Below are positions 1,235-23,633 of a stretch of DNA of 25,959 bases, piece after piece. Below the pieces are notes generated by a model. The model was not told where the DNA came from and did no database searches. It saw nothing but the letters and a program-made list of their open reading frames with translations. Location: the IMG/VR virus record IMGVR_UViG_3300037189_017574, positions 1-25,959 of that record, one strand, 5' to 3'. Position numbers and translations under genes: made by a program. The stretch comes from a virus. Every line of letters starts with the position of its first letter. Position 1 is the stretch's first letter.

Positions 1235-1247
1235 AAAAAACAAGACT

Positions 1248-3599: not shown

Positions 3600-3612
3600 A
3601 ATAAAATTAAAA

Positions 3613-4296: not shown

Positions 4297-4967
4297 AATA
4301 TATTTGCCAACACCTTGGACTAGGTGACCACCTTATAACAAATGGATTAATACGAACACTTATTGTAGAAAGTAATCGATATACTATGTTCGTTAAACCA
4401 GAATATGTACAGTCTGTTAAATTTATGTTTAGAGATTTACCTAACATTGAATTTTTAGAAGGTAGTGCTGATTCAGCAATTGATTTTCTAATATCAAATA
4501 ATATAAATAATAATGATGTTATATACGCCGGATTTCATTGGGTGGATAGATATGGATCCACATTTGAGGAAAATTTCTATTTACAAAATAATGTACCATT
4601 TGAAAATAAATGGTCAAAATTTTATGTAAATAGAAATACTAAAAGAGAAGATGATTTATTTGAAAAATATAATATAAACGAGCCTTATATATTTGTACAT
4701 CAAGATATAAGTCGAAATTTGAAAATAAGTGAACATAAGTTACCAAATTTAAGAATAATAGAACCAGATTTTTCATATACAGATAATATATTTGACTATT
4801 GTAAAATAATTGAGAGGTCTGAGTCAGTTCATTGCATTGAAAGTTCTTTTTTACTATTATGTGATTTAATGAGAATGAATGATAAAATATATTTACACTT
4901 ATACTCAAGAATACATCCTGAGAAATTCTTCATGCCAACTTATAGAAATGTAAGATATATAAATTAA
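4293..4967 (+). CDS. Putative GT-B-like glycosyltransferase, uncharacterised
   Basis: The start is placed at the ATG at 4293, which overlaps the preceding TGA as ATGA. A TTG nine bases upstream is a less likely start. The 224-residue product begins KYICQHLGLGDHLITNGLI. 'HLGLGDH...NG' resembles the N-terminal loop of GT9/GT11-like GT-B proteins found in phage and bacterial polysaccharide clusters. A later stretch (YIFVHQDISRN, then IERSESVHCIESSFLLL) fits the nucleotide-binding C-terminal half, where a 'C.ESSF' block replaces the usual 'G.SSF'. No DxD or HxRxGD motif is seen. I do not recognise a defined family with certainty. Its position among glycosyltransferases is the main support for a sugar-transfer role. 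Confidence 0.45.
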   Translation: MKYICQHLGLGDHLITNGLIRTLIVESNRYTMFVKPEYVQSVKFMFRDLPNIEFLEGSADSAIDFLISNNINNNDVIYAGFHWVDRYGSTFEENFYLQNNVPFENKWSKFYVNRNTKREDDLFEKYNINEPYIFVHQDISRNLKISEHKLPNLRIIEPDFSYTDNIFDYCKIIERSESVHCIESSFLLLCDLMRMNDKIYLHLYSRIHPEKFFMPTYRNVRYIN

Positions 4968-4988
4968 AATAGAAAATAAAAAATAAAA

Positions 4989-5585
4989 ATGGAAGACGTA
5001 CAAGGACAAATAACACCAGATACTTTAAGAGGAATGGCTATTAAATCAACTATACAAAAAAATAATTGTACTAAAATAGTAGAAATAGGAACCTGGAAAG
5101 GAATGGGAACAACACTCTGTATATTAGAAAGTATGCAAGATGATTGTGACTTTATCACATTAGAAAGTGATATAACTATGCATGAGATTGCTAAGAATAA
5201 TCTTAAAGAACATAAAGATAAATTAAAAATGATATATGGATCAATATCTGAAATATCTGAAGTAAATGAATTTGTTTCGGATGCTTATTTAGATGACCAA
5301 CAAAAAGGTTGGTTAGATTTGGATATAGAAAATATTAAAAACTGTCCAAATGTTTTAAATCTACTTCCGGAATCAATAGATTTTTTATTATTAGATGGTG
5401 GAGAATTCTCAACCTACTCTGAATGGATGAAATTAAAATCAAGAAGTGAAATTGTAGCACTTGATGATATTAACTGCCTAAAAACTCGTAGAATATTTAA
5501 CGAACTTAGTAATGATTCAAACTATGTTTTATTACATGTGATAAACGAAGTAAATGGATTTGCTATTTTTCAAAAAGTAAAATAA
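4989..5585 (+). CDS. Class I SAM-dependent methyltransferase
   Basis: A 198-residue protein with a canonical SAM-binding motif I, VEIGTWKGMGTTL at residues 31-43. An acidic residue ends the next strand (ITLESDI, about 57-63). IDFLLLDGGEFSTYSEW at 130-146 is followed by IVALDDINCLKTRR at 155-168. The 'LDGG/DGxHxY..V..D' arrangement resembles the Methyltransf_24 group, in which several members methylate sugars in glycan clusters. The acceptor is unknown; in this setting O-methylation of a glycan or sugar nucleotide is plausible. It is preceded by an unusually A-rich 21-base spacer and followed by the next gene after 2 bases. The SAM-binding assignment is secure, the sugar role is inferred. Confidence 0.75.
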   Translation: MEDVQGQITPDTLRGMAIKSTIQKNNCTKIVEIGTWKGMGTTLCILESMQDDCDFITLESDITMHEIAKNNLKEHKDKLKMIYGSISEISEVNEFVSDAYLDDQQKGWLDLDIENIKNCPNVLNLLPESIDFLLLDGGEFSTYSEWMKLKSRSEIVALDDINCLKTRRIFNELSNDSNYVLLHVINEVNGFAIFQKVK

Positions 5586-5587
5586 TT

Positions 5588-6445
5588 ATGATCGATTGGA
5601 TTCAAGGTGAGAGATTTATAAGTCTAAAAAATGAAAAAATATTCTTCTGCAAAACAGAACATGTAAATAATTTCTTTATAAATTGTGATAAGACTAAACC
5701 ATTCATTATGATATCACACTGTAGTGATGGTTCTGTAACAGACAATCCAAGAGCTTATAACTTTTTAGAAGAGAAACACCACGCGGACGTGAGATTGATG
5801 CCAGACAATTGTAAGAAGTGGTTTGCTTGTATGGTTGATTATGAACAATACAAAGAAAAAAGAATAGTACCACTCCCATTAGGCGTTGAGAATAATGTCA
5901 ATTTTATTAATGAGGGTAAGAGGGATTTCCTAATTCGAGAAATTGGTAACAATGTTGATAAATATGAAGACAAATTGGTATTTGTTAACTTTAAGATTTC
6001 GAACAACTATTCTGAAAGAATTGATGCATTTAACTCTATTAAAGATAGTGATTTTTGTACCATAACAAATTCTATGTTCACAAGAGAACAACTGGATAAA
6101 CCAAAGGAACTTTTCCCACATATAGATAAATTAAATTATGATGAATTTGTTAAGGAAATACACAAACATCACTTTATGCTTTGTCCAGTTGGTAATGGGT
6201 TAGATTCTCATCGTCTTTGGGAGGCATTATATTTGGGTTGTATACCAATCACGAGAAGAATAACAAACTATAATGAATACGAGGATAAAATTCCAATTTT
6301 ATTTTTGGATAAATGGAGTGATATAAATAAAGATTTATTATTAGAAAAAAAGGTTGAAATACAAAACAAAATTAAAAATGGGTTCTATAACTTAGAACTT
6401 TTGAGTTTTTCCTATTGGGAAAATTTAATAAAACAGGAGTGTTAA
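5588..6445 (+). CDS. Exostosin-like (GT47-type) putative glycosyltransferase
   Basis: A 285-residue protein whose C-terminal third holds FMLCPVGNGLDSHRLWEAL (about residues 196-214) and then YLGCIPITRR (215-224). This 'P.G.G.D.hR.WEaL..G.iPi' block is the shared donor-binding region of exostosin-like GT47 enzymes and related proteins such as the RXYLT1 C-terminal domain. The N-terminal half includes MISHCSDGSV and PLPLGVENN, which also occur in bacterial and viral members of this group. The family transfers sugars from nucleotide donors; here sugar and acceptor are unknown. There is no signal or membrane segment. It begins 2 bases after the methyltransferase gene. A 29-base AT-rich spacer separates it from the SDR gene. 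Confidence 0.7.
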   Translation: MIDWIQGERFISLKNEKIFFCKTEHVNNFFINCDKTKPFIMISHCSDGSVTDNPRAYNFLEEKHHADVRLMPDNCKKWFACMVDYEQYKEKRIVPLPLGVENNVNFINEGKRDFLIREIGNNVDKYEDKLVFVNFKISNNYSERIDAFNSIKDSDFCTITNSMFTREQLDKPKELFPHIDKLNYDEFVKEIHKHHFMLCPVGNGLDSHRLWEALYLGCIPITRRITNYNEYEDKIPILFLDKWSDINKDLLLEKKVEIQNKIKNGFYNLELLSFSYWENLIKQEC

Positions 6446-6474
6446 AATAATATATGGTAAATTAAAATAATAAT

Positions 6475-7116
6475 ATGAAAAAAATATCTTTTTTTGGTGG
6501 CTCAAGTGGTCTAGGAACTAAAGTTTTAAACGATTTATCTGCATATGATGTTGATGTCGTATCTTCAAAAAATTTGAACTTAAAAGATGATGAGTCTATT
6601 CTCAAATATTTCACTAACAAGGAATTGGATGTTGCAATAATATTTAATAATTTGAATTATAATTGTTTTATTCACAAATACAACAGAGATAATACAAAAA
6701 TTTTGGATGAACAAATAAGTGTGAACATAACAGGTGTTGTGAAATTAATTTCAGAGTGTCTTAAAATAATGAGAAATCAAAGATATGGTAGGATAATATT
6801 AGCCTCTAGTGTAACTGTTACAACTAAGGTTTTGGGTACAGGTATATACTCATCTTGTAAAGCCTTTTATGAGTGTCTAGTTAAAAATATAGCACTGGAA
6901 AATGCTTCTTTTGGTATAACTGCAAATTGTATACAACTAGGTTATATGGATGGCGGATTGACCTATACTTTATCTGACGATATGATAAATGATACGATAA
7001 ATATTATTCCAACAAAAAGACTTGGTACAAGTCAAGAAATTTCAGAAACAATAAAATTACTCATAAATAATGAATACATAAATGGCACAACAATAAAATT
7101 AACTGGCGGATTATGA
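6475..7116 (+). CDS. Short-chain dehydrogenase/reductase (classical SDR)
   Basis: A 213-residue classical SDR. GGSSGLG at residues 8-14 is the TGxxxGxG-type cofactor loop. ISVNITG near 81-87 supplies the structural Asn (N84). RIILASSV at 106-113 supplies the catalytic Ser, and Y125/K129 (GIYSSCKAF) form YxxxK. The end, TIKLTGGL, matches the usual C-terminal 'vdGG' strand. Such enzymes perform NAD(P)-dependent keto/hydroxyl interconversion. Next to an acyltransferase, a cupin and an aminotransferase, reduction or oxidation of a nucleotide-linked keto-sugar is a reasonable guess. The TGA overlaps the start of the acyltransferase gene (ATGA), pointing to coupled expression of this four-gene block. 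Confidence 0.82.
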   Translation: MKKISFFGGSSGLGTKVLNDLSAYDVDVVSSKNLNLKDDESILKYFTNKELDVAIIFNNLNYNCFIHKYNRDNTKILDEQISVNITGVVKLISECLKIMRNQRYGRIILASSVTVTTKVLGTGIYSSCKAFYECLVKNIALENASFGITANCIQLGYMDGGLTYTLSDDMINDTINIIPTKRLGTSQEISETIKLLINNEYINGTTIKLTGGL

Positions 7117-7640
7117 ATTTTAATAAAATTGGAAATGACGTATTTATATCTGATTTGAGTGTAATTACTAGACCCAACTTAGTATCCCTTGAAAGTCATA
7201 TTGCTATAGATCAATTTGTTACCATAACTACTCAAGCGGAAATAGGAAATTATGTGCATATAGCACCTTGTTGTAGTATTATAGGTGGTAAAAATTCCAA
7301 AATAATTATGATGGATCATAGTGGTATGGCAGCAGGTTCGAGAGTTATAGCTGGTAGTGCAGATTTCCATGGGGGTGGACTTACAAATCCACAAGTACCA
7401 AGTGAATATAAGACTGAAGTAACTACAACAGTAATATTTGAAAAATTTTCAATTTTAGGAACTAATGCTGTGGTTATGCCTGGAATTACTTTAGGAGAAG
7501 GTTCAATAGTTGGTGCGAATTCTGTTGTTACAAAAAATACAGAACCTTGGACAATTTATGTCGGATCTCCTGCAAAACCAGTAAACAAAAGAGATAAGGG
7601 TGATATAATTAAATATTATGAACTTCTTAAAAATAAATAG
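7113..7640 (+). CDS. Hexapeptide-repeat (left-handed beta-helix) sugar acyltransferase
   Basis: A 175-residue protein with hexapeptide periodicity. AEIGNYVHIAPCCSIIGG (42-59) is followed by a loop containing H86 (SADFHGGG). Further repeats run from SILGTNAVVMPGITLG through EGSIVGANSVV (113-139), and the C-terminal block is IYVGSPAKPV (148-157). This layout is typical of O- or N-acetyltransferases of the WbbJ/NeuD/FdtC-like type, active as trimers with acetyl-CoA. Beside a DegT/StrS aminotransferase and a cupin, N-acylation of an amino sugar is the favoured role. O-acylation of a glycan remains possible. It starts inside the previous stop codon and is followed by the cupin gene after 3 bases. 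Confidence 0.8.
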   Translation: MNFNKIGNDVFISDLSVITRPNLVSLESHIAIDQFVTITTQAEIGNYVHIAPCCSIIGGKNSKIIMMDHSGMAAGSRVIAGSADFHGGGLTNPQVPSEYKTEVTTTVIFEKFSILGTNAVVMPGITLGEGSIVGANSVVTKNTEPWTIYVGSPAKPVNKRDKGDIIKYYELLKNK

Positions 7641-7643
7641 AAC

Positions 7644-8054
7644 ATGTATAAAATATTCAGTAAAAAAGATCCAAATAAATTATTACACATAATAGTTAGA
7701 AAATCAGATATAAAATCTGGTAGGATTGATTTAGTACCTGGGGAAAACTTCCTACAATGCGCATTACTTAATATGGAAAATGGTAAAACTTTCCCACCAC
7801 ATAGACATATTTGGAAAAACAGAAAAAGAGATGTGATAGCACAAGAAAGTTGGATAGTAATTCAAGGATGTGTTAAGTGTATTCTTTATGATTTGGATGA
7901 TCAAATAATAGACACACCAATTCTTTATCCTGGAGATGCATCATTTACTTTGGAGGGTGGTCATACTTATGAAATATTAGAGGATGATACAATAGTTTAT
8001 GAGTACAAAACTGGACCCTATGAGGGGAAGGAATATGATAAAAAGTTTTTATAG
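7644..8054 (+). CDS. Cupin-domain protein, possibly sugar-nucleotide associated
   Basis: A 136-residue single-domain cupin. Candidate metal ligands are H53 and H55 (PPHRHIW), E68 (AQESWIVIQG) and H107 (EGGHTYE), in the order and spacing of the two cupin motifs. ESWIVIQGCVKCILYD is the typical strand pair between them. Small cupins in deoxysugar clusters include keto-isomerases such as FdtA and epimerases such as RmlC-like proteins, but the visible His/Glu set suggests a metal-binding cupin and does not identify the reaction. The gene sits between the acyltransferase and the aminotransferase with 2-3-base gaps, so it probably belongs to the same pathway. No other function can be supported. Confidence 0.65.
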   Translation: MYKIFSKKDPNKLLHIIVRKSDIKSGRIDLVPGENFLQCALLNMENGKTFPPHRHIWKNRKRDVIAQESWIVIQGCVKCILYDLDDQIIDTPILYPGDASFTLEGGHTYEILEDDTIVYEYKTGPYEGKEYDKKFL

Positions 8055-8056
8055 AT

Positions 8057-8647
8057 ATGAGTTTTACAATAGTTAAAGAATTTGAAACAGAGATAGCATC
8101 TTTTTTTGGATGCCCTTATGCAATAGCTGTTGATTGTTGCACACATGCTATTGAACTATGTCTTAGACATAAAAATGTATCTTCTATTCAAGTACCAAAG
8201 AGGACCTATATTTCAGTCCCATTTTTATCCCATAAACTAAATATAAATTTAGAATGGAAGGATGAAAATTGGATAGATTATTATTATTTAACTGAAAATG
8301 TCATAGACGCTGCTGTTCTTTGGAAGAAAAACAGCTATATACCTGGTACATTTATGTGTTTAAGTTTTCAGTATCAAAAACATTTATCACTTGGAAGGGG
8401 TGGGATGATTTTGACTGATAATCTCGAATCTTATGATCAATTAAAAAAAATGTCTTATGATGGTAGAATACCAGAAATACCTTGGAGGGAACAAAATATA
8501 TCTTCCATGGGATATCACTACTATATGACACCCGAGACCGCAAAGTCTGGATTGGAAAAATTACCTTTAGCAATTGTGAATACTCCTAGAAAGTGGACTC
8601 TTACCGATTGGCCAGACTTGACTGAAATGGAAATATTTAAAAAATAA
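8057..8647 (+). CDS. Compact DegT/DnrJ/EryC1/StrS-type sugar aminotransferase-like protein
   Basis: A 196-residue protein that follows the order of DegT/StrS aminotransferases at about half their usual length (360-400). FFGCPYAIAVDCCTHAIEL (16-34) matches 'G....av.s.T.Al.lal'. VIDAAVLW (82-89) matches the 'EDaA' region that contacts PLP. SFQYQKHLSLGRGGMILTDN (103-122) contains K108 at the PLP-lysine position. GYHYYMTPETAKSGLEKL (152-169) matches the 'GyN.Rm.e.qAA.gl.qL' block. The normal C-terminal domain is absent. These enzymes aminate keto-sugar nucleotides, for example to perosamine or Fuc3N/Qui4N. The retained lysine suggests PLP binding, but activity of such a short form is uncertain. 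It may work with the host's or another copy's subunit. Confidence 0.72.
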   Translation: MSFTIVKEFETEIASFFGCPYAIAVDCCTHAIELCLRHKNVSSIQVPKRTYISVPFLSHKLNINLEWKDENWIDYYYLTENVIDAAVLWKKNSYIPGTFMCLSFQYQKHLSLGRGGMILTDNLESYDQLKKMSYDGRIPEIPWREQNISSMGYHYYMTPETAKSGLEKLPLAIVNTPRKWTLTDWPDLTEMEIFKK

Positions 8648-8660
8648 TTTAAAAATAAAA

Positions 8661-9641
8661 GTGAATAACAAGAAGAAAGCTTTCATAACTGGTATATCTG
8701 GACAAGATGGTTCATATTTAACAGAGTATTTATTATCTTTGGACTATGAAGTCCATGGTATAGTTAGAAGAAGTTCTGTAACAGAGAACCAACAAAATAG
8801 ATTAGAACATTTGAGAGATAAAATAAATATCTATTATGGAGATTTACTTGATCAATCAAGTATAGATCGATTATTATATAATTTACAACCAGATGAGATT
8901 TATAACTTGGCAGCACAGAGTCATGTTAGGATAAGTTATGAGATTCCTAATTTTACTTCACAAGTAAATGCAATTGGAGTTCTTAACATATTAGAATCGT
9001 ATAGAACGTATTGTCCAAATTCCAAATTTTATCAAGCATCATCATCTGAAATGTTTGGATCTTCTGTAGATTTTGATGGTTTCCAAAGGGAAACCACACC
9101 AATGAACCCAGTTTCTCCATATGGGTGTTCTAAAGTTTTTGGATATAACATAGTAAGAAATTATAGGAATGCCTATAAACTACACGCCTCCAATGGAATA
9201 CTTTTTAATCATGAATCTCCTAGGAGGGGAACAAACTTTGTAACTAATAAAGTTGTCAAAACAGCTGTGGAAATAAAACTTGGATTATCACCTTTACTGG
9301 TATTGGGTAACATGGACTCTTATAGGGATTGGGGTCATTCATATGATTATGTGAGAGCTATGCATTTGATACTTCAACAAGAATCACCAAATGATTATGT
9401 TGTATCCACTGGTGAAACGAGGTCTGTAAGGGATATGTGTGAATATGTATTTGGTAAACTAAATTTGGATTATAAGAAATATGTTGTTCAAGATGAGAAA
9501 TTTTTGAGACCAGAAGAATTACCTTACTTAAGGGGTGATTCAAGTAAGATAAGAACTGAACTTGGTTGGTCCCCCAAATATTCTTTTTCTGAAATGATGG
9601 ATGAAATGATAGAATACTGGTTTTCAATACTGAAAAAATAG
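8661..9641 (+). CDS. gmd: GDP-mannose 4,6-dehydratase-like protein, short copy
   Basis: A 326-residue extended SDR starting at GTG 8661, after an A-rich leader; no in-frame ATG lies near. Hallmarks of GDP-mannose dehydratase are present: TGISGQDGSYLTE at residues 10-22, YNLAAQSHV at 81-89, QASSSEMFG at 125-133, SPYGCSKVF at 152-160 with Y154/K158, [12 protein letters not shown], and LGNMDSYRDWGH. The usual catalytic Thr of T-x-E is Ser here (S128, E130). The region that in the second copy reads through FRPSEVDLL is about 25 residues shorter (LRPEELPYLRGD). The enzyme converts GDP-mannose to GDP-4-keto-6-deoxymannose, precursor of GDP-fucose, -rhamnose, -perosamine and others. The shortening and the Ser could mean altered substrate or a neofunctionalised paralogue. 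Confidence 0.82.
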   Translation: MNNKKKAFITGISGQDGSYLTEYLLSLDYEVHGIVRRSSVTENQQNRLEHLRDKINIYYGDLLDQSSIDRLLYNLQPDEIYNLAAQSHVRISYEIPNFTSQVNAIGVLNILESYRTYCPNSKFYQASSSEMFGSSVDFDGFQRETTPMNPVSPYGCSKVFGYNIVRNYRNAYKLHASNGILFNHESPRRGTNFVTNKVVKTAVEIKLGLSPLLVLGNMDSYRDWGHSYDYVRAMHLILQQESPNDYVVSTGETRSVRDMCEYVFGKLNLDYKKYVVQDEKFLRPEELPYLRGDSSKIRTELGWSPKYSFSEMMDEMIEYWFSILKK

Positions 9642-9645
9642 TTTT

Positions 9646-10410
9646 ATGATCACAGTAGATTTTAATTTTATTTTAGACAAAAGTAATATTGGAATTGGAA
9701 ACAATATGTTCCAATACTGTATTTGTCGTATAATTGCTGAAAAAAATGGTTATAATTTTCATATAAAAAATGATAGTTCATTTACTGAAATAAAAATTTT
9801 TTTCCCTGATTTGGATTTGGGAGTACAAGATGGTGAAATTAAGTATCATTACTCTGATACAGAAATGCAAATTTTCAATGAAGAAATATTCAATATACCA
9901 GATTTTACTAAAATAATTGGTTATTTCCAATCAGAAAAATATTTTCTTGGATATGAGCATAAGATAAAATCTTGGTTCAAATTAGAAATGGATGAGAAAA
10001 CAAAGAATATTTTAGAATTATATAGAAAAGATCAATATTGTTACGTGCATTTCAGAGGCGGTGATTATAAAAATAATAGTAATTTGTTACCAAAAATCTA
10101 CTATGATTTAGCAATGCAAGAAATGGCTAAAGAAAAAGATATAAAATTTCTTGTAATAACTGATGATTTGGATTTGGCTAAATTGTATTTTCCATCAACC
10201 GAAATAATAAGCAATGATACTTTAACGGATTTCAAATGTTTATATTTTTCCAAATACTCTATAATATCAAATTCAAGCTTTTCTTGGTGGACATCTTGGT
10301 TGAGCGATAAGGAAAAGTCCGTGGCTCCATCGAAATGGTTGAATTATAATAAAGATGGAGAAATATGGCATCCATTTGATATAAAAACAAAAAAATTTAT
10401 TTATGTTTGA
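9646..10410 (+). CDS. GT11 family alpha-1,2-fucosyltransferase
   Basis: A 254-residue protein with all main GT11 motifs. GIGNNMFQY at residues 16-24 is the N-terminal GNN..Q loop. IGYFQSEKYF at 91-100 is typical of bacterial members. HFRGGDY at 135-141 is the HxRxGD donor site. FLVITDDLDLAK follows at 168-179. SNSSFSWWTSWLS at 208-220 is the diagnostic C-terminal block. The length is slightly under the usual 280-300. It should transfer L-fucose (or a related GDP-6-deoxyhexose) from GDP to the O-2 of a galactose-like acceptor in the cytoplasm. It starts 4 bases after the dehydratase gene, which could help make its donor, and overlaps the dioxygenase gene by 8 bases. Family confidence is high; acceptor unknown. 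Confidence 0.88.
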   Translation: MITVDFNFILDKSNIGIGNNMFQYCICRIIAEKNGYNFHIKNDSSFTEIKIFFPDLDLGVQDGEIKYHYSDTEMQIFNEEIFNIPDFTKIIGYFQSEKYFLGYEHKIKSWFKLEMDEKTKNILELYRKDQYCYVHFRGGDYKNNSNLLPKIYYDLAMQEMAKEKDIKFLVITDDLDLAKLYFPSTEIISNDTLTDFKCLYFSKYSIISNSSFSWWTSWLSDKEKSVAPSKWLNYNKDGEIWHPFDIKTKKFIYV

Positions 10411-11290
10411 TTTAATTGATTATAAAAAAGACAAGAATGCTACATCAATACCTTGGATTGAATCTCCATTCTTTTATGATTTACTTGATTGCACAAGTTT
10501 GACCGAATACCAAAGAGACAGAGCTATAAAATTTCACGAAGATGGATATTTGGTTTTGGATCTTGAATTGGAAGAAGAATTTATTGAATCTTGTATAAAA
10601 GATATGTACTCTGGACTTGAAAGAGATAATGCAAAATTTCAAGCGGATTTTTATACTTATTCTGACAGTCCGCGATTATTTGAAGAATGGAGGGAGTCCG
10701 AAAATATTCGTCAGCTTTGTCTAAACAAAAAATTGATTGATGAATTGGAATTCTTATATAACAAAGAAGCTTTTCCATTTTCAACTATAAATTTCATAAA
10801 GGGATCTAATCAACCTCTCCATAGTGACTCAATACACTTTAACACAATTCCACAATCTTGGATGAGTGGTGTTTGGATAGCTCTTGAGGATACAAATACT
10901 GAAAATGGCACTTTGAATATAGTACCTGGTAGTCATAAATGGCCAATTATAGACTACACCTCTTTGAATTTTGAACATCCTGACTTAATTCAAAATGGAG
11001 AGATGGAGAACTACAGAAAGTATGAACATTTTATAGAACAACTTGTTGAGACAAAAAATGGAGTTGTAACCCCAATAAGTTTGAAAAAAGGAGAAGCTTT
11101 GATTTGGTCGGCCAATCTATTACATGGTGGCATGGAGATTAAAGACAAGTCAAAAACTAGATTGACTCAAGCTATTCACTATTTCTACAAAGATTGTAAG
11201 AAGTATTACCACCCCATGTTTTCCAATATATACGAGGGAAAATATGCTTTGAAATGGTGTAATGAGGAGAATAATATTAAAAAACATTAA
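10403..11290 (+). CDS. Phytanoyl-CoA dioxygenase (PhyH)-family Fe(II)/2-oxoglutarate oxygenase
   Basis: A 295-residue protein with the metal triad of PhyH oxygenases: H140 and D142 in PLHSDSIHF, and H241 in LLHGGME. R253 (KTRL) is placed to bind 2-oxoglutarate. SGVWIALEDTNTENGTLNIV (155-174) and PGSHKWP are the characteristic core between the ligands, and KKGEALIWSANLLHGG the second. These enzymes hydroxylate or otherwise oxidise small molecules using O2 and 2-oxoglutarate. Within a glycan cluster, the target could be a sugar or a lipid-linked or protein-linked glycan, but no direct evidence shows this. It overlaps the fucosyltransferase gene by 8 bases. Oxygen dependence would imply an aerobic or microaerobic host. 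Confidence 0.83.
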   Translation: MFDLIDYKKDKNATSIPWIESPFFYDLLDCTSLTEYQRDRAIKFHEDGYLVLDLELEEEFIESCIKDMYSGLERDNAKFQADFYTYSDSPRLFEEWRESENIRQLCLNKKLIDELEFLYNKEAFPFSTINFIKGSNQPLHSDSIHFNTIPQSWMSGVWIALEDTNTENGTLNIVPGSHKWPIIDYTSLNFEHPDLIQNGEMENYRKYEHFIEQLVETKNGVVTPISLKKGEALIWSANLLHGGMEIKDKSKTRLTQAIHYFYKDCKKYYHPMFSNIYEGKYALKWCNEENNIKKH

Positions 11291-11309
11291 AATAACACTT
11301 TGACCTTTT

Positions 11310-12413
11310 ATGATAGAAATTGATTATTTAATTGTTGGATGTGGTTTATTCGGAGTTACTTTCGCTAGAGAAATGACAAACCACGGTAAAAAATGTTTGA
11401 TAATAGATAAGAGAAATCACATAGGTGGTAATGTTTACACCAAAAATGAAGATGGGATTAATGTCCATGTTTATGGTCCACACATATTTCACACATCGGA
11501 TAAAAGAATATGGGATTATGTTAATAAGTATGCCACTTTTAATAATTTTAGATATGAACCAATTGCTAAATTTAGAGATGAGGTTTATAACTTACCATTC
11601 AATATGAATACTTTTAGTAAGATGTGGGGTGTTGTAAATCCACAAGAAGCTATGAGTAAAATAGAATCACAAATTGTTAATATTGACAATCCCAAAAATT
11701 TGGAAGAATTCGCACTATCAAAAGTTGGTATAGATATTTATGAGAAGTTAATAAAAGGATATACAACAAAGCAATGGGGAACCGATCCTAAAAATCTACC
11801 AAGTTCTATAATAAAGAGAATACCACTTAGATTTACATATGATAACAATTACTATTATGATACATATCAAGGTATACCTATTGGTGGATACACAAAAATG
11901 ATAGAAAATATGATAGGTGATATAGAGGTTAAATTAGAGGTTGATTATCTAAGTAATAGGAATTATTATGATTCTTTAGCTAATAATATAGTTTATACTG
12001 GTAAAATAGATGAGTTTTTTAATTATAGATTTGGAGAATTAGAGTATAGAAGTTTAAAATTTGAAACTGAGATATTGAATATCAAAGACTATCAAGGAGT
12101 TGCAGGTGTTAACTATACTGGCTTAGATGTGGAGTGGACTAGAATAATAGAACACAAACATTTTGAAATGTTAAATACTAACAATACTATAATAACAAAA
12201 GAATATCCACAAAAATTTGATAAAAATAACATACCTTATTACCCAATAAATGATGATAAGAATAATAAAATTTATCAAAAATATAAAGAACTTTCACTGA
12301 CTTATCCGAATATAATATTTGGTGGAAGATTAGCTGAATATAAATACTATGATATGCACCAAATTATAGGATCAGCATTAGCAAAAACAAAAAGAATAAA
12401 GAATAAAGAATAA
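11310..12413 (+). CDS. glf: UDP-galactopyranose mutase
   Basis: A 367-residue flavoprotein, the usual length of bacterial Glf. The FAD-binding Rossmann motif is VGCGLFGVTFA (9-19) followed by IDKRNHIGGN (32-41). YGPHIFHT (55-62) is the conserved FAD/substrate loop. GYTTKQWG (150-157) and the stretch from IPLRF to GIPIGGYT (171-195) are diagnostic Glf blocks. FGGRLAEYKYYDMHQ near the C-terminus carries the conserved Arg that contacts the diphosphate. The enzyme interconverts UDP-galactopyranose and UDP-galactofuranose with reduced FAD. The product feeds galactofuranosyltransferases, one of which might be among the unassigned transferases upstream. It lies 19 bases after the dioxygenase gene and 82 bases before the second dehydratase. 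Confidence 0.93.
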   Translation: MIEIDYLIVGCGLFGVTFAREMTNHGKKCLIIDKRNHIGGNVYTKNEDGINVHVYGPHIFHTSDKRIWDYVNKYATFNNFRYEPIAKFRDEVYNLPFNMNTFSKMWGVVNPQEAMSKIESQIVNIDNPKNLEEFALSKVGIDIYEKLIKGYTTKQWGTDPKNLPSSIIKRIPLRFTYDNNYYYDTYQGIPIGGYTKMIENMIGDIEVKLEVDYLSNRNYYDSLANNIVYTGKIDEFFNYRFGELEYRSLKFETEILNIKDYQGVAGVNYTGLDVEWTRIIEHKHFEMLNTNNTIITKEYPQKFDKNNIPYYPINDDKNNKIYQKYKELSLTYPNIIFGGRLAEYKYYDMHQIIGSALAKTKRIKNKE

Positions 12414-12495
12414 AAATAATAATAACAGAAAATGAATATTTCAAAGAGGTTTCTAAATATGATATTAATAATAGATTTAACAAAATTAAATAAAT

Positions 12496-13581
12496 ATGAA
12501 TAAAATTGCATTAATAACCGGTATAACCGGACAAGACGGCTCATACTTAGCAGAGATACTACTATCAAAAGGCTACCAAGTACATGGAATTAAAAGAAGA
12601 AGTTCTATTTTTAACACAGATAGAATTGACCACTTATATAAAGATAAACATGAATCTTCCAATTTCTTTTTACACTTTGGTGACTTAACTGACGCAACTA
12701 ATTTAATTAGAATTATTCAAGAGGTTCAACCAGATGAAATCTATAACTTGGCTGCTCAATCTCATGTTAAAGTAAGTTTTGAAACACCAGAATATACAGC
12801 CAACTCAGATGCCTTAGGCACACTTAGAATATTAGAAGCAATTCGTATTCTAGGATTAGAAAAGAAAACTAAGTTTTATCAAGCATCTACTTCTGAAATG
12901 TTTGGATTGGTACAAGAGATACCACAAAAAGAGACTACTCCATTTTATCCACGTAGTCCATATGGAGTTGCTAAATTATATGCTCACTGGATTACTAAAA
13001 ACTATCGTGAATCATATGGAATGTTTGCTTGTTCTGGTATTTTATTTAATCACGAATCACCAGTTAGAGGAGAAACATTTGTCACAAGAAAGATTACAAG
13101 AGCAGTTGCTAAAATACACCATGGACTTAATGATAAACTATACCTTGGTAATTTAGATGCTGAAAGAGATTGGGGCCACGCAAAAGACTTCGTAGAAGGA
13201 ATGTGGATGATGTTACAGCAAGATCAACCAGATGATTATATATTGGCTACCAACCGTAAAATCTCAGTTCGCAGATTTGTTGAATTATCATTTAATGAAA
13301 TTAATATTGATATCAAATGGATAGGAGACGGAGTCAATGAAAAAGGAATTGATTCTAAAACAGGAGATGTATTAGTTGAAATTGATCCAGTTTATTTTAG
13401 ACCATCAGAAGTTGATTTACTAATAGGTGATTATACCAAAGCTAAAACTAAATTAGGATGGGAACCTAAGTATAAAGTTGAAGACTTGGTATCAGAAATG
13501 GTACAAGAAGATATTAAATTGTTTGCTAAAGATAAATACCTACAAGATGGTGGATATGAAATAACAAACTATTATGAGTAG
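12496..13581 (+). CDS. gmd: GDP-mannose 4,6-dehydratase, full-length copy
   Basis: A 361-residue protein that matches standard Gmd over its whole length. [13 protein letters not shown] at 8-20 binds [23 protein letters not shown] runs from 83 to 101. T132 and E134 (QASTSEMFG) with Y156 and K160 (SPYGVAKLY) form the catalytic T-E-Y-K set. [19 protein letters not shown] and [17 protein letters not shown] follow, and [12 protein letters not shown] lies near the end. It dehydrates GDP-mannose to GDP-4-keto-6-deoxymannose. It is more canonical than the shorter paralogue at 8661, with which it shares most motifs but clearly not recent identity. It is separated from glf by an 82-base AT-rich spacer with no recognisable gene, and it overlaps the start of the 73-residue gene by 8 bases. 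Confidence 0.95.
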
Positions 13582-13795
13582 ACTAAAAGAGATTAAATCA
13601 GAAGTATATTATTCAACTGAACATCATTATAGTAAAGACATTTTAGGAGAATTAGAGAAAATCTTATCAGAAGAATTGGCTAGATCAATTGATGCACAAA
13701 TAATGCAAGACCTTAAACCTTTTATTCGCGAATCTAAAATTGATTCTATCTTAGATATACTTGAAAAGTATGAACAGACTAGATCTTCTGAATAA
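13574..13795 (+). CDS. Small helical protein of unknown function
   Basis: A 73-residue, strongly charged protein predicted by eye to be almost wholly helical: [28 protein letters not shown], and [18 protein letters not shown]. It has no membrane segment, cysteine pair or recognised motif. The ATG overlaps the dehydratase stop (8 bases shared), so it is probably translated with it. Its end overlaps the convergent tail gene on the other strand by 17 bases, with no terminator hairpin visible at the junction. Sequence style resembles small structural or chaperone-like phage proteins. I do not recognise the family, and it may belong functionally to the virion region, not to sugar metabolism. Confidence 0.6.
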
Positions 13796-14291
13796 TAGTA
13801 GGCAACTCACTTAACTCCATTACTTTAGATTTGTTTAAAATAAATTCTATATCAATATAGTTAAACTTAAAAGTCATCGTAAAATCTTTTGCGTTGACTT
13901 TTTGTTGCGAGTAATCAAAGTTATTCTCAGACAGTGATAAAGCTATTATCTGGTGATAATTAATCTGATAGATAGCATCTCTGTGTATATCTACCGCAGT
14001 TACTATAAATGGCTTTATATACAGATTAACAACATCTAAATAATGCTTTTGAAAAATATCAAATAACACCCAATAATTTAAGTCAGAATCTACACTTCTA
14101 AATGTAACAGTAAGCTCTCTTGTAGATACAATATCATTTATGTTTCTAGCTGGCTTATAGTTTATCTTTTTACCATGCATGATAGTTTGTTCTGGTGTAT
14201 CAATACTTAATCCTGGGAAGTTCACTGACTTAATCGTAGAGTTCAAATAATCAATAACATTCTCATATTGAACCCAGTTTTTTGCAAGCAT
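13779..14291 (-). CDS. Tail-tube-like virion protein, 5' end disrupted
   Basis: The 170-residue product begins at the only ATG available (14291). SVNFPGLSI (about 22-30), STRELTVTFRSVDSDLNYW (56-74) and the C-terminal DFTMTFKFNYIDIEF resemble the beta-rich core of T4 gp19-type tail-tube and related virion proteins, in which 'PG' near the start and 'TVTF' strands recur. The reading frame stays open for a further 32 codons upstream (to 14387) and reads like real protein (QFVFNLPSDFLPTEI), but without a start codon, because an endonuclease fragment lies directly upstream. The annotated start may therefore be internal to an originally longer gene. Structural role is inferred from neighbours and weak resemblance. 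A minor baseplate protein is an alternative. Confidence 0.5.
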   Translation of the reverse strand: MLAKNWVQYENVIDYLNSTIKSVNFPGLSIDTPEQTIMHGKKINYKPARNINDIVSTRELTVTFRSVDSDLNYWVLFDIFQKHYLDVVNLYIKPFIVTAVDIHRDAIYQINYHQIIALSLSENNFDYSQQKVNAKDFTMTFKFNYIDIEFILNKSKVMELSELPTIIQKI

Positions 14292-14387
14292 AGGAGTATA
14301 GGTATTGATTATCTCTGTTGGGAGGAAATCACTCGGTAGATTAAAGACAAATTGGGCGGATTGGCTGGATAAACGGATGGTTATAAA
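14292..14387 (-). other. Orphaned 5' coding segment of the tail-tube-like gene (no start codon)
   Basis: Read on the - strand, this stretch continues the frame of the downstream tail gene without a stop. It encodes about 32 residues (including RLSSQSAQFVFNLPSDFLP) before the methionine at 14291. No ATG, GTG, TTG or CTG codon occurs in it. It is visibly richer in G+C than the endonuclease fragment that abuts it, and its last in-frame stop lies inside the endonuclease ORF (14388-14390). I read it as former coding sequence cut off from its start by the insertion. Confidence 0.55.
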
Positions 14388-14770
14388 TTATTTTTTAATT
14401 CCTTTAAAAGGATATTTTTAATATTATCAAATTCATTATACTTTATTCTTATTAGTTTAACATTATTATTCTTACACCACTCATTTTTACACTTGTCTCT
14501 TTCTTTAATATCATTAAACTCTTCTTCACCACCAAATTGTTTAACTGGTTTAAAGTGTTGTATTCCATCAAACTCAATACAAACATTTTGTTCAGGTAAA
14601 TAAAAATCAAAGCTTAGTTTATTAACATATTTGCATGTATCAAAACCATGTTGTCTTATATATTTAATTTCCAATTCCTCTAGAAACATTTTTACATATT
14701 CTTCTCCATTTGAATTTGATGAGCATTCTGGGCAACCTTGACCCCTAAGATGTTTTAAATGAAATTTTCC
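14381..14770 (-). pseudogene. Truncated homing-endonuclease-like gene (zinc-finger plus Vsr/PD-(D/E)xK-like domain)
   Basis: From the ATG at 14689 the frame encodes 102 residues with FDFYLPEQNVCIEFDGIQHF (27-46), FGGEEEFNDIKERDK (52-66), and WCKNNNVKLIRIKY (71-84). This is the core of a phage endonuclease family with a Vsr-like PD-(D/E)xK fold; D28 and E39 are candidate metal ligands. Upstream the same frame continues open to a TGA at 14771-14773 and encodes HLKHLRGQGCPECSS, which matches the end of the 'HL.G.GCP.C' zinc modules that normally precede this domain. The rest of the zinc region is gone and no start codon precedes it. The element therefore looks like a 5'-truncated remnant, although translation from 14689 remains possible. 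It is wedged between two structural genes. Confidence 0.7.
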
Positions 14771-14777
14771 TCACTTT

Positions 14778-16598
14778 TTATATTGTACTTGATGTAGCTG
14801 TTGTTAGTGTCACACCACCTGCTGTTGTTGTTGATAATATAACAGTTGATTGCGTCGCTACTTTTCTAGTTATAACCGCCGTTCCACCAACAGATGTGTC
14901 AGGTATAATTTGTGTAACTGACGTAGATGCAACATTAGCTGCTGATGTATTTTGTTGGTTAAGATTATTGATGTTATTCAATGAGTCGTAAGTAGCAAAT
15001 AAACCAGAATAAATAACAGTAGTTGTACTTAATTGTGTACTTGTTACATAAAATACATTAATACCTGACTCATATATCTTTCTTATATCACTGAATCTAC
15101 CAGATGGTATTTTAAATGCTAAGAACCCTGATGATAGATTTATACTATCGCTTTCTGTATATAAAGGCACATCAACCGATATATTTGGATTCTTAATACT
15201 TAATTTTATCTCACCAAGATTAGTCATGTCTAGGTATTGAACCTGGTTAGACGTAATTTGATCAGCTACAATAATCTTCAAAACATTATCAAATGGATAT
15301 AAAATAACCATAATTTTACCTACTCCAAAGAAGGTATCTTTACCATATGTTACACTATCAGATTTAGCAACAACGTTATATTTATCTGACAATATTGGAT
15401 ATGGAACCTTTACAGCTTCTAAAGCCGATGCTACTGATATATTTGCTGGTGTATATGAATTAGTATTCTTATAATTATATATTTTTGGCTTGTTAGCATT
15501 GTCTAAGTTAATCTTCATTAGTTTCAAACTATATTTAGATACTTGATCTTGTAACATACCGTAAGAAGCAATTCTAGTAATCTGACTGTTATCAACTGCG
15601 TCAATTAGATTCATTTGTACCTCAATAACAGCTGTTGTAGTAGAGTATTTTATAATAGGTCTATACTCTACCTTGTTCAGGAAGTCATTATTCACAGTAA
15701 CCTTCATTGTCTTACCTTTAATGTTTTGTTCATACATAGTAATAATATACTCAACATAGTATCTGTTACCAAGGTAGACAGTACGCACCATAAAATCATT
15801 AAAGTCACCTATTGTTCCATTGTATGTGCCATATATCTCAAAGAAGTCTCCATTTACCGACTCTTCTATTATTAATCCAATCTTTTCAAACTCTGGTACT
15901 TGAGGAACTGATATTGTAGTCTTAGCTGATAATGAATATGTTTTAACAGAATTTATAGTTGAAATATTATTAATAAACTGAAAATCTATAAATAACGGTG
16001 TGTTCTTATCTAAACCGACACCACTAGTCAAATTATAGTTAATAGAATTTGTTTTGATAACTCCATTGACTACTTGATTAGAAACTGTATTTAGTGATGG
16101 TATTTTTAGTGATATTGATTTACCCCAAAGTTTTTCTTGAAAGAATAGAGGAGGATTTACATAGGTTAGTTCACCTGATTGATCAAGGTTTGTAACATCA
16201 AAAAAGAAATTTGTTAAATCAAATGTCGTTTTTTGAAAGATATCAAATCCATATGCTCTTAAGTAGAAACCTTGATAGTCACCAAATGTCCAATTTATCG
16301 GTAAATAAATGTTCAGAGTATCATGAGTGACCGGAAATCCAGAGGCATAGTCGTTTTCCTGTAAGAATGTATAAGTGTTTGTATCAAAAACACCATATTT
16401 ATTAGTTACCAAGTCTATTGGAAACAAATTATTTGATGACTTATTTAATGTTGTGGTTGTATTAGAAGCTATATAGTTTTTGTTACCATTTTTAATATTA
16501 ACACCAATTTTATATGGTTCACTAATAAGATTTGTATCATCATAAACATACTCAAGTAGTATGTTAGCATCAAGTTTTAGATATTTTGAGACCCTCAT
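14778..16598 (-). CDS. Large virion structural protein, probable
   Basis: A 606-residue, beta-rich, Ser/Thr/Asn-rich protein without signal or membrane segment. It opens MRVSKYLKLDANILLEYVYD. Repeated hydrophobic/polar alternation (for example FIDFQFINNISTINS and MKVTVNNDFLNKVEY) suggests beta-sandwich domains, and the last 60 residues are a low-complexity Ser/Thr/Val run ending TTATSSTI. This composition, the length and the position beside a tail-tube-like gene suit a tail or baseplate component of a large myophage. I cannot name a T4 counterpart. The start at 16598 follows a TATAAAATA box by 12 bases and a terminator of the upstream gene. Only about 10 bases separate its stop from the endonuclease remnant. 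Confidence 0.6.
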   Translation of the reverse strand: MRVSKYLKLDANILLEYVYDDTNLISEPYKIGVNIKNGNKNYIASNTTTTLNKSSNNLFPIDLVTNKYGVFDTNTYTFLQENDYASGFPVTHDTLNIYLPINWTFGDYQGFYLRAYGFDIFQKTTFDLTNFFFDVTNLDQSGELTYVNPPLFFQEKLWGKSISLKIPSLNTVSNQVVNGVIKTNSINYNLTSGVGLDKNTPLFIDFQFINNISTINSVKTYSLSAKTTISVPQVPEFEKIGLIIEESVNGDFFEIYGTYNGTIGDFNDFMVRTVYLGNRYYVEYIITMYEQNIKGKTMKVTVNNDFLNKVEYRPIIKYSTTTAVIEVQMNLIDAVDNSQITRIASYGMLQDQVSKYSLKLMKINLDNANKPKIYNYKNTNSYTPANISVASALEAVKVPYPILSDKYNVVAKSDSVTYGKDTFFGVGKIMVILYPFDNVLKIIVADQITSNQVQYLDMTNLGEIKLSIKNPNISVDVPLYTESDSINLSSGFLAFKIPSGRFSDIRKIYESGINVFYVTSTQLSTTTVIYSGLFATYDSLNNINNLNQQNTSAANVASTSVTQIIPDTSVGGTAVITRKVATQSTVILSTTTAGGVTLTTATSSTI

Positions 16599-16619: not shown

Positions 16620-16629
16620 GTATATATAA

Positions 16630-16658
16630 AAAGAAAAACCTTTCTTAACGAAAGGTTT
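16630..16658 (-). terminator. Rho-independent terminator after the coiled-coil gene
   Basis: A perfect 9-bp stem (16636-16644 with 16650-16658) with a 5-base loop is followed on the - strand by TTTTTCTTTTT. The stem begins within the TAA stop of the 121-residue gene, so transcription of the 307/121-residue operon should end here, before the separate 606-residue gene. Confidence 0.85.
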
Positions 16659-20105: not shown

Positions 20106-20182
20106 ATCTTATATATTATATTATATTATACACTATATATTAAAAACATATTTCACTTTTTAGTGAGTATTGAGATTTAATA

Positions 20183-20190
20183 TATAAATA
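20183..20190 (+). promoter_or_regulatory. T4-type late promoter box TATAAATA
   Basis: An exact match to the T4 late promoter consensus TATAAATA lies 15 bases before the ATG of the virion-like gene at 20206. In T4, gp55-directed polymerase starts several bases downstream of this box, which would leave a short leader here. Its position in a divergent intergenic spacer, ahead of a probable structural gene, supports it. Confidence 0.5.
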
Positions 20191-21331: not shown

Positions 21332-22273
21332 TTAGTTTATGTGACTTATAACTTCTTTAAAACATTCTAAGTCTCTTCCTCCACCATAAGATATTGAACT
21401 TTGTAGACATTCTTTAAGAAATTGATATTCTTCTAATATAGTTCGATCTTTATAATCAATCAATATCTTCTTTCCTTCAATTCTATTGGATTTATTACTT
21501 TGGAACTGAGAAGCACTTCCCCAAAACTCTTTGTATTGTTTACCACTAAATGATACAGTGCTGCCTGGTGAGTCCTTAAATCCTGAAAGCATTCCACCAA
21601 CCATTACTAATGTTGCACCCATAACCAAACTTTTTGATATATCAGCTGGTTCTTTTATTCCACCATCACCAATAATTGGTTTTTTAGCAACTAACGCACA
21701 GTCTTTAATTATCGATGCTTGACAGTTTCTACTGCCAAATCCCGTTGTTGGATAAGTAGTACATGCGCTGCCTGAGCCGATCCCAACCTTAATAGCATCT
21801 GCTCCCCATTTCTCTAGATCTTCTACAGCATCTTGTGTTGACACATTTCCTGCTATAATAAAAGTGTTTGTAAACATATTGTGAATAAACGGTATCATTT
21901 TTTCCATTTTAATCGAATGTCCGTGTGCAATATCTACTGTAATATAATCTGGCTCTACTCCAAGTGATTCTAATTTTGATAAAAAATCATAAGAGTCTTG
22001 ATTAACACCAACTGATATAGATATTGGTAGATCTAAGTTCTTCATTTTTTTACAGAATTCCAATGTATCACCAAATCTATGCATGATATAAAAGAATCCA
22101 TTTTTTGCTAATGTAATAGCAACTTCCTCATTGATTACACATTCCATATTAGCTGGAACAACTGGTAAGTTGAACTTAAACCTTCCTAATTGAAATGATG
22201 TATCACATTCACTTCTAGAATCAACTATACACTTTCTTGGTATAAGGTTAATATCACTAAAATCAAATTTCAT
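21332..22273 (-). CDS. guaC: GMP reductase (IMPDH/GMPR family)
   Basis: A 313-residue TIM-barrel protein. NLIPRKCIVDSRSECDTS (9-26) and LPVVPANME (36-44) are typical of GMP reductases. The catalytic loop GIGSGSACTTYPTTGFG (164-180) places the nucleophilic Cys at C171. IIGDGGIKEP (200-209) binds the phosphate, and EFWGSAS, IEGKK and the terminal SSISYGG block correspond to the C-terminal motifs of GMPR. No CBS domains or Arg-Tyr IMPDH flap are present, so IMP dehydrogenase is less likely. The reaction is NADPH-dependent reductive deamination of GMP to IMP, moving guanine nucleotides toward adenine. It is third in an operon with DnaJ and a 100-residue unknown (17-base gap) and ends at a bidirectional terminator. 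Confidence 0.88.
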   Translation of the reverse strand: MKFDFSDINLIPRKCIVDSRSECDTSFQLGRFKFNLPVVPANMECVINEEVAITLAKNGFFYIMHRFGDTLEFCKKMKNLDLPISISVGVNQDSYDFLSKLESLGVEPDYITVDIAHGHSIKMEKMIPFIHNMFTNTFIIAGNVSTQDAVEDLEKWGADAIKVGIGSGSACTTYPTTGFGSRNCQASIIKDCALVAKKPIIGDGGIKEPADISKSLVMGATLVMVGGMLSGFKDSPGSTVSFSGKQYKEFWGSASQFQSNKSNRIEGKKILIDYKDRTILEEYQFLKECLQSSISYGGGRDLECFKEVISHIN

Positions 22274-22290
22274 ATTTATTTTAATTTTTA

Positions 22291-22593
22291 TTAATAAAAA
22301 GAGTATTTATTATTTTCTATAATACAGTAGATATTACAAGGTAATAAGTTAACCTCTTTTTCATTTTCATCTACAACAAATCTTGATGAACCTTCAATTA
22401 GCTTTTCATTTGTTATTCTAACTGTCATATTATTTAATCCTTTTAACATAATATAAATTGGATCTTCTTTTGATATTTTTAGTGAGTTATCTTTGTTTCT
22501 CAGTTTTCCATTGTTATCTTTAAAATAACACTTTTCAATCAAGTCTTTTAGTTCTTTTTCTTGATTAATTTCAATCTTCATTTCATACTTCAT
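22291..22593 (-). CDS. Uncharacterised protein, 100 residues
   Basis: A Lys/Glu/Asn-rich protein opening MKYEMKIEINQEKELKDLIE, with a beta-rich C-terminal half (MTVRITNEKLIEGSSRFVVD, then VNLLPCNIYCIIENN). It contains three cysteines, of which two (PCNIYC) are close together, but no recognisable domain or membrane segment. It starts 2 bases after the dnaJ stop and lies 17 bases before GMP reductase, so it is almost certainly co-transcribed with both. An alternative start at the second methionine (22581) is possible. I cannot assign a function. Confidence 0.6.
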   Translation of the reverse strand: MKYEMKIEINQEKELKDLIEKCYFKDNNGKLRNKDNSLKISKEDPIYIMLKGLNNMTVRITNEKLIEGSSRFVVDENEKEVNLLPCNIYCIIENNKYSFY

Positions 22594-22595
22594 AA

Positions 22596-23633
22596 TTATA
22601 AGTCTTTTAATTTAATAAATAAATCTCTTTGCTCCTCTGTTAGTATTTTAGGTATTAGTATATTCACTTTTATGTGTAAACTTCCGGTGCTATATGACTC
22701 CCCATTCATAGATAAGTTTGGTATGCCTTTGTTTTTAAATGTGAAAACTTTTCCCCCATCACATCCATTAGGTATATTTATACTAATTTCACCGTGTGGA
22801 GTTTCAATAGTAGATGTTTTTCCTAAAACAGCATCTGAAATAGTAATCCAATGGTTATAGTTTAGGTCTGTTCCATCACGTTGGAATTTATCATCCGGTA
22901 TTTCATTAACAGCAATAAATAAATCACCTGGATCTCCATTTCTAACATGATTACCATTTCCTGGCATATTGATTTGTACTCCATTTACGGCACCTGCTGG
23001 TATTTTAATATCAATAGTTTCCTCTTTAAGAATTGTTCCTTCTCCTCTACAATCATTACATTTATGTTGTACTATTTTACCAGTTCCATCACAGATGTTG
23101 CACAAATGAGCTTGTTGAACTCTTCCGAATGGTGTATTCTGTACAACTACCTTTTTACCTTGTCCATTACAAGAGTAACAAGTGTTTAAGTCATTACCAC
23201 CTTTCCCATCACATTTTTGACATTTATCTTGTCTTTTGTATTTTATTTTCTTATTTGATCCAAATATAACATCAATTAAGGTTAAATTAACCGGAACTCT
23301 TAAGTCATTTCCTCTTTTTCTGTTATTGAATCCACCACCTCCGAATCCACCTCCAAATATATCCCCAAACTGTGAGAATATATCATTCATATTAAATGGA
23401 TTTCCACCACCATTAGACCCATTAGCTGTTCCAAAGGTATCATAATTCCTTCTTTTGTTTTCATCAGACAATACATCATATGCTTCAGCAGCTTCTTTGA
23501 ACTTATTTTCAGCTTCGCTGTCACCTGGATTTCTATCAGGATGTAGCTCCATTGCTTTTTTTCTATATGTCTTTTTGATTTCATCTGGTGTTGCATTCCT
23601 ATCTACACCAAGTATTTCGTAATAGTTTTTCAT
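22596..23633 (-). CDS. dnaJ: DnaJ-type (class I J-domain) co-chaperone
   Basis: A 345-residue protein with full class I DnaJ architecture. The J domain (1-70) contains the HPD triad (H31-P32-D33). A Gly/Phe-rich linker runs to about 104 ([14 protein letters not shown]). Four CxxCxGxG zinc modules pair C138/C141, C152/C155, C178/C181 and C192/C195. A substrate-binding C-terminal region follows, with [20 protein letters not shown] and [17 protein letters not shown]. The C-terminus is slightly shorter than cellular DnaJ (about 370-380). It should stimulate host DnaK ATPase and deliver unfolded proteins to it. All catalytic and zinc residues look intact. It heads the - strand operon with the 100-residue unknown and GMP reductase. 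A TATAAAAAT-like string lies about 20 bases upstream. Confidence 0.95.

Follow-up and report, generated by a model that had tools for sequence, protein, structure and literature searches.

A homing-endonuclease element at the start of a phage tail gene very probably carries a rewritten gene start that lacks ATG

How a virion gene can be expressed from a frame without a recognisable start codon is the question raised by a locus in the 25,959-nt stretch of viral DNA analyzed here (IMG/VR record IMGVR_UViG_3300037189_017574; hereafter the window). On its minus strand, a tail-gene frame is open from 14387 to 13779 with its first ATG, GTG or TTG at 14291 (an ATG), and directly 5' lies an endonuclease frame (14384–14770, stop TAA at 14381–14383) that has no start either. 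A preliminary description of this DNA proposed that a decayed homing-endonuclease fragment had decapitated the tail gene, and that the gene, if still made, used the ATG at 14291, a non-standard start, or splicing or hopping. Elsewhere in the window, about 13 kb of the plus strand (410–13581) holds sugar genes (a fucosyltransferase, UDP-galactopyranose mutase, hexapeptide acyltransferase and PhyH-like dioxygenase), among them two different GDP-mannose 4,6-dehydratases (8661–9641 and 12496–13581), and the minus strand at 21332–23633 codes for a protein resembling IMP dehydrogenase/GMP reductase and for a complete DnaJ with its J, zinc and C-terminal domains.

Relatives of the tail gene were drawn from IMG/VR and from huge-phage records of 635–642 kb, and dropping near-copies left 50 distinct genes, which begin with ATG (36), ATC (8, the window included), ATT (5) or TTG (1, the lineage L057). 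Codons 2–33 align across this set without indels, and 36/50 genes begin at the codon aligned to the window's ATC (Table 1) rather than at the residue of 14291. The gene is thus not decapitated: compared with its ATG relatives it has lost only the G of ATG and keeps a complete N-terminus. The 32 protein-like codons described earlier as lacking an initiation codon are indeed open and encode real protein, but only 29 of them lie in the gene, while the three 5' of the ATC (TTT ATA ACC) are leader; FVFNLPSDFLPTEI, from the ATG-less 5' codons of the frame, is conserved in the 50 relatives. An assembly error at this site is very unlikely because the same non-ATG state recurs in 13 other distinct assemblies. 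One record (L001) matches the window exactly along 5300 nt and therefore supplies no independent evidence.

The tail protein has distant relatives in Lak phages, in phage PAU and in phages similar to PAU. Its predicted structure (mean pLDDT 61, low confidence) resembles baseplate/tail-tube proteins and the tail tube of T4 type, consistent with a tail-tube-like function. A solved-structure sequence search with the tail profile gave no match, no relatives were found in the host genomes searched, and the upstream gene matched nothing in Pfam or PHROG.

The presence of a decayed homing endonuclease at the start of this virion gene was borne out by our searches. The window piece matches phrog_559 and phrog_9084, and its frame opens inside the last zinc module (GKFHLKHLRGQGCPEC), just as had been noted from its letters. 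It keeps the motifs GEE, FDFYLP and IEFDG.QH, and the residues G312, E313, D345, E356, D358 and H362 are invariant among the endonucleases aligned, the window copy included. Zinc modules of the DUF723 and DUF4379 types score above cut-off in its relatives; the window retains the end of the last module only, the left part of the element and about 290 endonuclease codons having gone while the nuclease residues remain. By its predicted domain plan, the enzyme belongs to the zinc-repeat EDxHD/Vsr-like group, and in its behavior the element belongs with free-standing (intronless) endonucleases.

Aligned carriers reveal a common order, in which a relic of the native tail-gene start is followed by a box (TTTNATATATA), the zinc modules, the nuclease domain, an A-rich leader, a pair of pyrimidines and then the rewritten start. 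Native-start relics are clear in L046, L060, L061, L071 and L075; that of L046 comprises native codons 1–4 (ATG AGA TTA AGT) followed by ATCAAAAGGTGACA, and L060, L061, L038 and L071 have similar ones. The relic ATG has decayed to ATA in L057 and L075, both with intact endonucleases, and in L036 and L008, and reads ATG-TGA in L071. Since 56 of the 86 copies of the box in four long carrier contigs lie no more than 120 nt upstream of an ATG frame of at least 100 codons, it is probably a promoter. It often stands 4 or about 20 nt before the ATG (carrier contigs L183–L198; window 16621–16631, 20134–20144 and 20176–20186), and a distance of 4 nt points to mRNAs with a very short leader or none. A leaderless transcript of the tail gene itself from this A-rich box was rejected, its spacing from the start being too long. 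An inverted repeat spans the endonuclease start in L038 and L057. At the other end of the element, the palindrome TCCTTTTAAAGGA (14400–14412) falls within the endonuclease coding sequence; a hairpin 5' of the start was rejected as a functional RNA, as it consists of C-terminal endonuclease codons, although a secondary role is kept as a possibility.

Table 1 Features of the tail-gene locus in the window (positions on the 25,959-nt stretch).
Feature	Position	Strand	Basis
Tail-tube-like gene, 199 codons, first codon ATC (14378–14376) where relatives have ATG	13779..14378	(-)	50 distinct relatives
Recoded tract, tail codons 1 to about 16	14331..14378	(-)	Synonymous codon comparison
Putative AUC initiation codon, preceded by CC	14376..14378	(-)	ATG in 36/36 loci without the element
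Element 3' end: small palindrome TCCTTTTAAAGGA (14400–14412), A-rich leader, endonuclease stop TAA (14383–14381), CC before ATC	14379..14412	(-)	Layout shared with other carriers
Truncated homing endonuclease: half of the last zinc module and the entire nuclease domain; about 290 N-terminal codons deleted	14381..14770	(-)	phrog_559, 3.3e-43; alignment with intact 417–431-codon relatives
GTGAGG, possibly left over from the native tail-gene start (ATG AGG), at the left of the element	14769..14774	(-)	Position alone (3 nt past the upstream gene's stop); weak
Upstream gene, 606 aa; in the IMG/VR loci whose upstream region was read, a relative lies before the tail gene	14778..16598	(-)	

The state of the start codon follows the element closely. 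ATG begins the gene in 36/36 loci without the element and in 0/14 loci with the element or a trace of it. Eight of these 14 have an intact or truncated endonuclease directly upstream, three have short traces, and three were recognized by a decayed 3' end. Intact endonucleases gave strong tblastn matches at eight carriers (L038, L062, L066, L057, L071, L075, L012 and the window) and weak C-terminal matches of 16–21 residues at L046, L039 and L008 (E 0.07–0.33); no ATG locus had a convincing match, a single one being at chance level (0.78). The remaining three carriers (L007, L036 and L067) were assigned by the element 3' end and the recoded start, without endonuclease similarity, an assignment that leans on the feature being explained. 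The last locus to be found, L233, has ATG and no endonuclease, as expected.

Relatives with an intact 417–431-codon endonuclease (L038, L057, L060, L061 and L075) have also lost the ATG. The change from ATG to ATC or ATT therefore belongs to the mobile element itself, and the earlier idea that decay of the window's endonuclease copy cost the gene its start does not hold. At this one site, the element is polymorphic (14 loci with it or a trace, 36 without), and on a tail-gene tree built without codons 1–16 the non-ATG label changes 12 times, at least 10 of them on well-supported branches. L038 and L039 share 90% identity over the final 66 nt of the element, against only 69% over tail codons 17 onward. 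Judged from these comparisons, the element is one that spreads horizontally, together with flanking DNA (the recoded tract ends near codon 16), and the 14 loci are thus not 14 independent losses of ATG. Intact endonucleases in the set fall to 44–47% identity, so the ATY state is evidently old and unreverted; reversion to ATG would take one base and is seen in no lineage, even where the endonuclease is gone and the decay series has run down to nothing recognizable as one. Other target genes of the same endonuclease family usually begin with an ordinary ATG, often overlapping the endonuclease stop, and AUY thus seems special to the tail-gene target. Many endonuclease relatives (in L077, L098, L111, L112, L138 and others) stop precisely at the following gene's ATG (at -4 counted from the endonuclease end) or share 8–29 nt with that gene, the targets being unrelated. 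A search around another target gene (L119) did not find a second relative.

Beyond the first codon, the carriers differ from ATG loci in how the same protein is encoded. In codons 2–12, synonymous differences affect 94/138 identical residues between a carrier and its nearest ATG relative, versus 48/144 in ATG–ATG control pairs (p about 5e-9, which is optimistic because the compared pairs share relatives). The effect is weaker in codons 13–16 (p 0.05) and absent after codon 17. Serine codons even switch family (AGT to TCC) while the amino acids are kept. Since amino acids persist despite this synonymous change, the recoded tract appears to be read as protein from codon 2 onward; codons upstream of the rewritten start are not conserved. 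We consider it highly probable, from these alignments, that the homing-endonuclease element carries a rewritten tail-gene start. The original proposal of an insertion or recombination event that removed the gene's start is thus upheld as to insertion, given the relic and the scattered presence of the element, but the start was replaced by a recoded copy rather than removed.

Where translation begins was approached by elimination. All 14 non-ATG reading frames are full length with conserved protein, and in 14/14 an in-frame stop lies 2–6 codons 5' of the start with no NTG between. The next NTG comes only at codon 60 in L007, L008, L036 and L039 and at codon 62 in L057. Because of the conserved codons, the upstream stops and the lack of other starts, initiation would fall at AUY, or at UUG in L057; a non-standard start, one of the options listed at the outset, is accordingly kept as the most likely route, and initiation of the tail protein at AUC/AUU is, on this evidence, probable. 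Several features set these starts apart. Two pyrimidines occupy positions -2 and -1 (window 14379–14380) in 13/13 AUY loci and 13/14 non-ATG loci, versus 2/36 ATG loci. ATA never occurs at the start site, though 47% of the Ile codons that these genes contain are ATA (P about 1e-4, from resampling that treated loci as independent). The start region is also less paired in non-ATG than in ATG loci (p 0.0003). The normal initiator tRNA starts very poorly at AUU and AUC, and IF3 selects against such starts (PMC10158994); weak initiation alone accounts neither for the excess of ATC over ATT (8 versus 5) nor for the pyrimidines before the codon.

The explanation that best combines these results, and that we regard as likely overall, is a home-and-rescue-like element with a rewritten, AUY-initiated tail-gene start. 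In huge phages, a free-standing homing-endonuclease element inserts after about codon 4 of the tail-tube-like gene, and the window holds what decay has left of it. When intact, it comprises the promoter-like box, with an overlapping hairpin over the endonuclease start in some carriers, and a 417–431-codon endonuclease of several zinc modules and an EDxHD/Vsr-like nuclease; its 3' end supplies the A-rich leader and then the rewritten first codons of the tail gene. Because the element brings these codons, the gene would keep its function though its native start is cut off as a relic. Ribosomes would start at AUC/AUU (UUG in one lineage), with the open A-rich leader helping them; in carriers that still have the endonuclease, termination–reinitiation at its stop may also contribute (TAA-CC-AUC in the window, a UUGA overlap in L057). 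If the start codon and the codons after it lie in the nuclease recognition site, the rewritten copy would escape recutting, hence the loss of ATG; an AUG at this place would restore the target, and the recoded codons after it would fit the same need. Whether recut avoidance is the reason for the loss of ATG we regard as evenly balanced. The absence of ATA and the pyrimidines before AUY may be target-destroying changes or part of an initiation signal. An element of this kind would act like an engineered home-and-rescue drive. A more elaborate form, in which the rescue piece of a natural home-and-rescue element has dedicated AUC/AUU (never AUA) initiation in a YY-AUY context, possibly with a non-standard initiator tRNA, seems to us unlikely.

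Its tRNA component can also be taken as an explanation in itself, namely a special initiation with anticodon GAU that reads AUU and AUC but not AUA or AUG, giving another first residue or using a special initiator. The 13 AUY starts, the lack of AUA, the excess of AUC and the conserved pyrimidines would all fit, and initiator tRNAs with a GAU anticodon start well at AUU/AUC in vitro (PMC10158994). However, the L057 lineage uses TTG, the AUY and pyrimidine biases could be a DNA-level trait of the element, and ARAGORN found no such tRNA in four long carrier contigs (about 320 kb, partial genomes), where it made two low-credibility tRNA calls, neither fitting. We therefore consider a dedicated GAU initiator improbable. 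A supply of the start codon from the RNA, by cis or trans splicing or by ribosome hopping that links the relic ATG to the recoded frame, gains something from the small hairpins 5' of the start and from the relic ATG retained in L046, L060, L061 and L038, but this earlier suggestion fits poorly and is very unlikely: the relic ATG has become ATA in four other carriers and is followed by TGA in L071, the endonuclease stop and the start lie only a few bases apart (less than 70 nt in all in L007), stops stand 2–6 codons upstream, splicing where the codons are duplicated would yield them twice, and the recoded codons show synonymous variation of the kind seen in translated sequence. No group I or II self-splicing intron was matched in Rfam (E up to 1–5), and such an intron was rejected, there being too little non-ORF sequence and no retained 5' ATG; the remark that the element is too short for a typical group I intron was correct. 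A split intein was likewise rejected, with no intein half found and 2–6 sense codons before the recoded start in every carrier, and so was translational bypass of the T4 gene 60 type, as relic and recoded codons differ (TTA versus CTT/CTC, ATA versus ATC) and the gap exceeds 1.2 kb in intact copies.

Initiation downstream, at the ATG that the window does have at 14291, would leave the first 29 codons dead; these include codons 2–16, whose amino acids are retained in 14/14 carriers despite heavy synonymous change, and four non-ATG relatives offer no ATG, GTG or TTG before codon 60, so that this start is no general answer and its chance is slight indeed. Similarly doubtful is the possibility that the non-ATG genes are dying while an intact ATG copy persists elsewhere: the carrier contigs span 11–99 kb, and their genomes may measure about 640 kb, which leaves space for a second copy, but none was seen in 13 carrier records (partial genomes), and all 14 frames remain full length with conserved protein. 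Least credible is a single chain of endonuclease and tail protein made by stop readthrough or frameshifting. L012 has the two frames in register across one TAA, and in L038 a -1 shift at AAA AAA TAG (slippery AAAAAAT) would join them, yet in L060 the tail frame meets a TAA of its own past the stop of the endonuclease, and L007, L008, L036, L039 and L067 retain no endonuclease frame; fusion was therefore rejected as possible in L038 and L012 only.

The preferred reading, a home-and-rescue-like element, has partial counterparts elsewhere. The zinc-repeat EDxHD/Vsr-like phage endonucleases (CapR-like/DUF4379/DUF723; PMC12350094) share the zinc modules and a C-terminal nuclease with GE, D, E-D and H. 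Those enzymes were described from group I/II introns or split-intein loci, whereas neither was found here and a rewritten start replaces splicing; PMC12350094 cites the 'fractured genes' of Dassa 2009 for homing endonucleases of this type. Free-standing endonucleases of T4-type phages (PMC2988022, PMC5009743) likewise break important phage genes without an intron while function is kept, and they share the hairpin and late promoter over the endonuclease start and the overlap and coupling with neighbors; an inverted repeat over the endonuclease start, as in L038 and L057, is also known from I-TevI (PMC2988022). In those phages, mobE splits nrdA of Aeh1 and mobA splits T4 gene 39/60 (PMC2988022, PMC5009743), giving two polypeptides, or a 50-nt bypass in T4 gene 60, whereas here one polypeptide would be made via a recoded start without AUG. 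Fungal mitochondrial endonuclease insertions in atp6 and cox2 (PMC4019555) also bring a duplicate of the severed gene end; they duplicate C-termini and meet no start-codon problem, whereas here the duplicate is of the gene start. Similar in working are HomeR home-and-rescue drives (PMC7968924), which place a nuclease in an important gene with a recoded, uncuttable rescue piece, but these are engineered, in insects and at the 3' end, and the analogy is of working only. A free-standing endonuclease carrying a recoded non-AUG N-terminal start was not found in the literature searched, which was thin on subscription papers.

The bacterial gene infC has a start codon of the AUU/AUC type. The gene sigR has a GTC start (PMC5472188). 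Both genes share a strongly non-canonical start with the tail gene, but they are single regulated genes, whereas here a mobile element takes the altered codon with it into a virion gene. Changes of this kind are exceedingly uncommon among bacteria, with one AUG to AUU switch in 61,358 reconstructed AUG starts (PMC5622118), yet AUU or AUC starts 13/50 relatives, always with the element or a trace.

The usual view of free-standing endonucleases places them harmlessly between genes or has them split genes, whereas here one occupies a gene start. The locus allows tests of how efficiently real ribosomes initiate at AUU/AUC within a naturally A-rich leader and of whether recognition by a nuclease can drive a gene to give up AUG as its start codon. 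Gene callers will misplace or miss the starts of such genes. By bringing its own rewritten version of the virion gene start on which it lies, the endonuclease would be a natural counterpart of an engineered recoded rescue. If dedicated AUC/AUU initiation were true, these phages would express a virion gene without any AUG, GUG or UUG.
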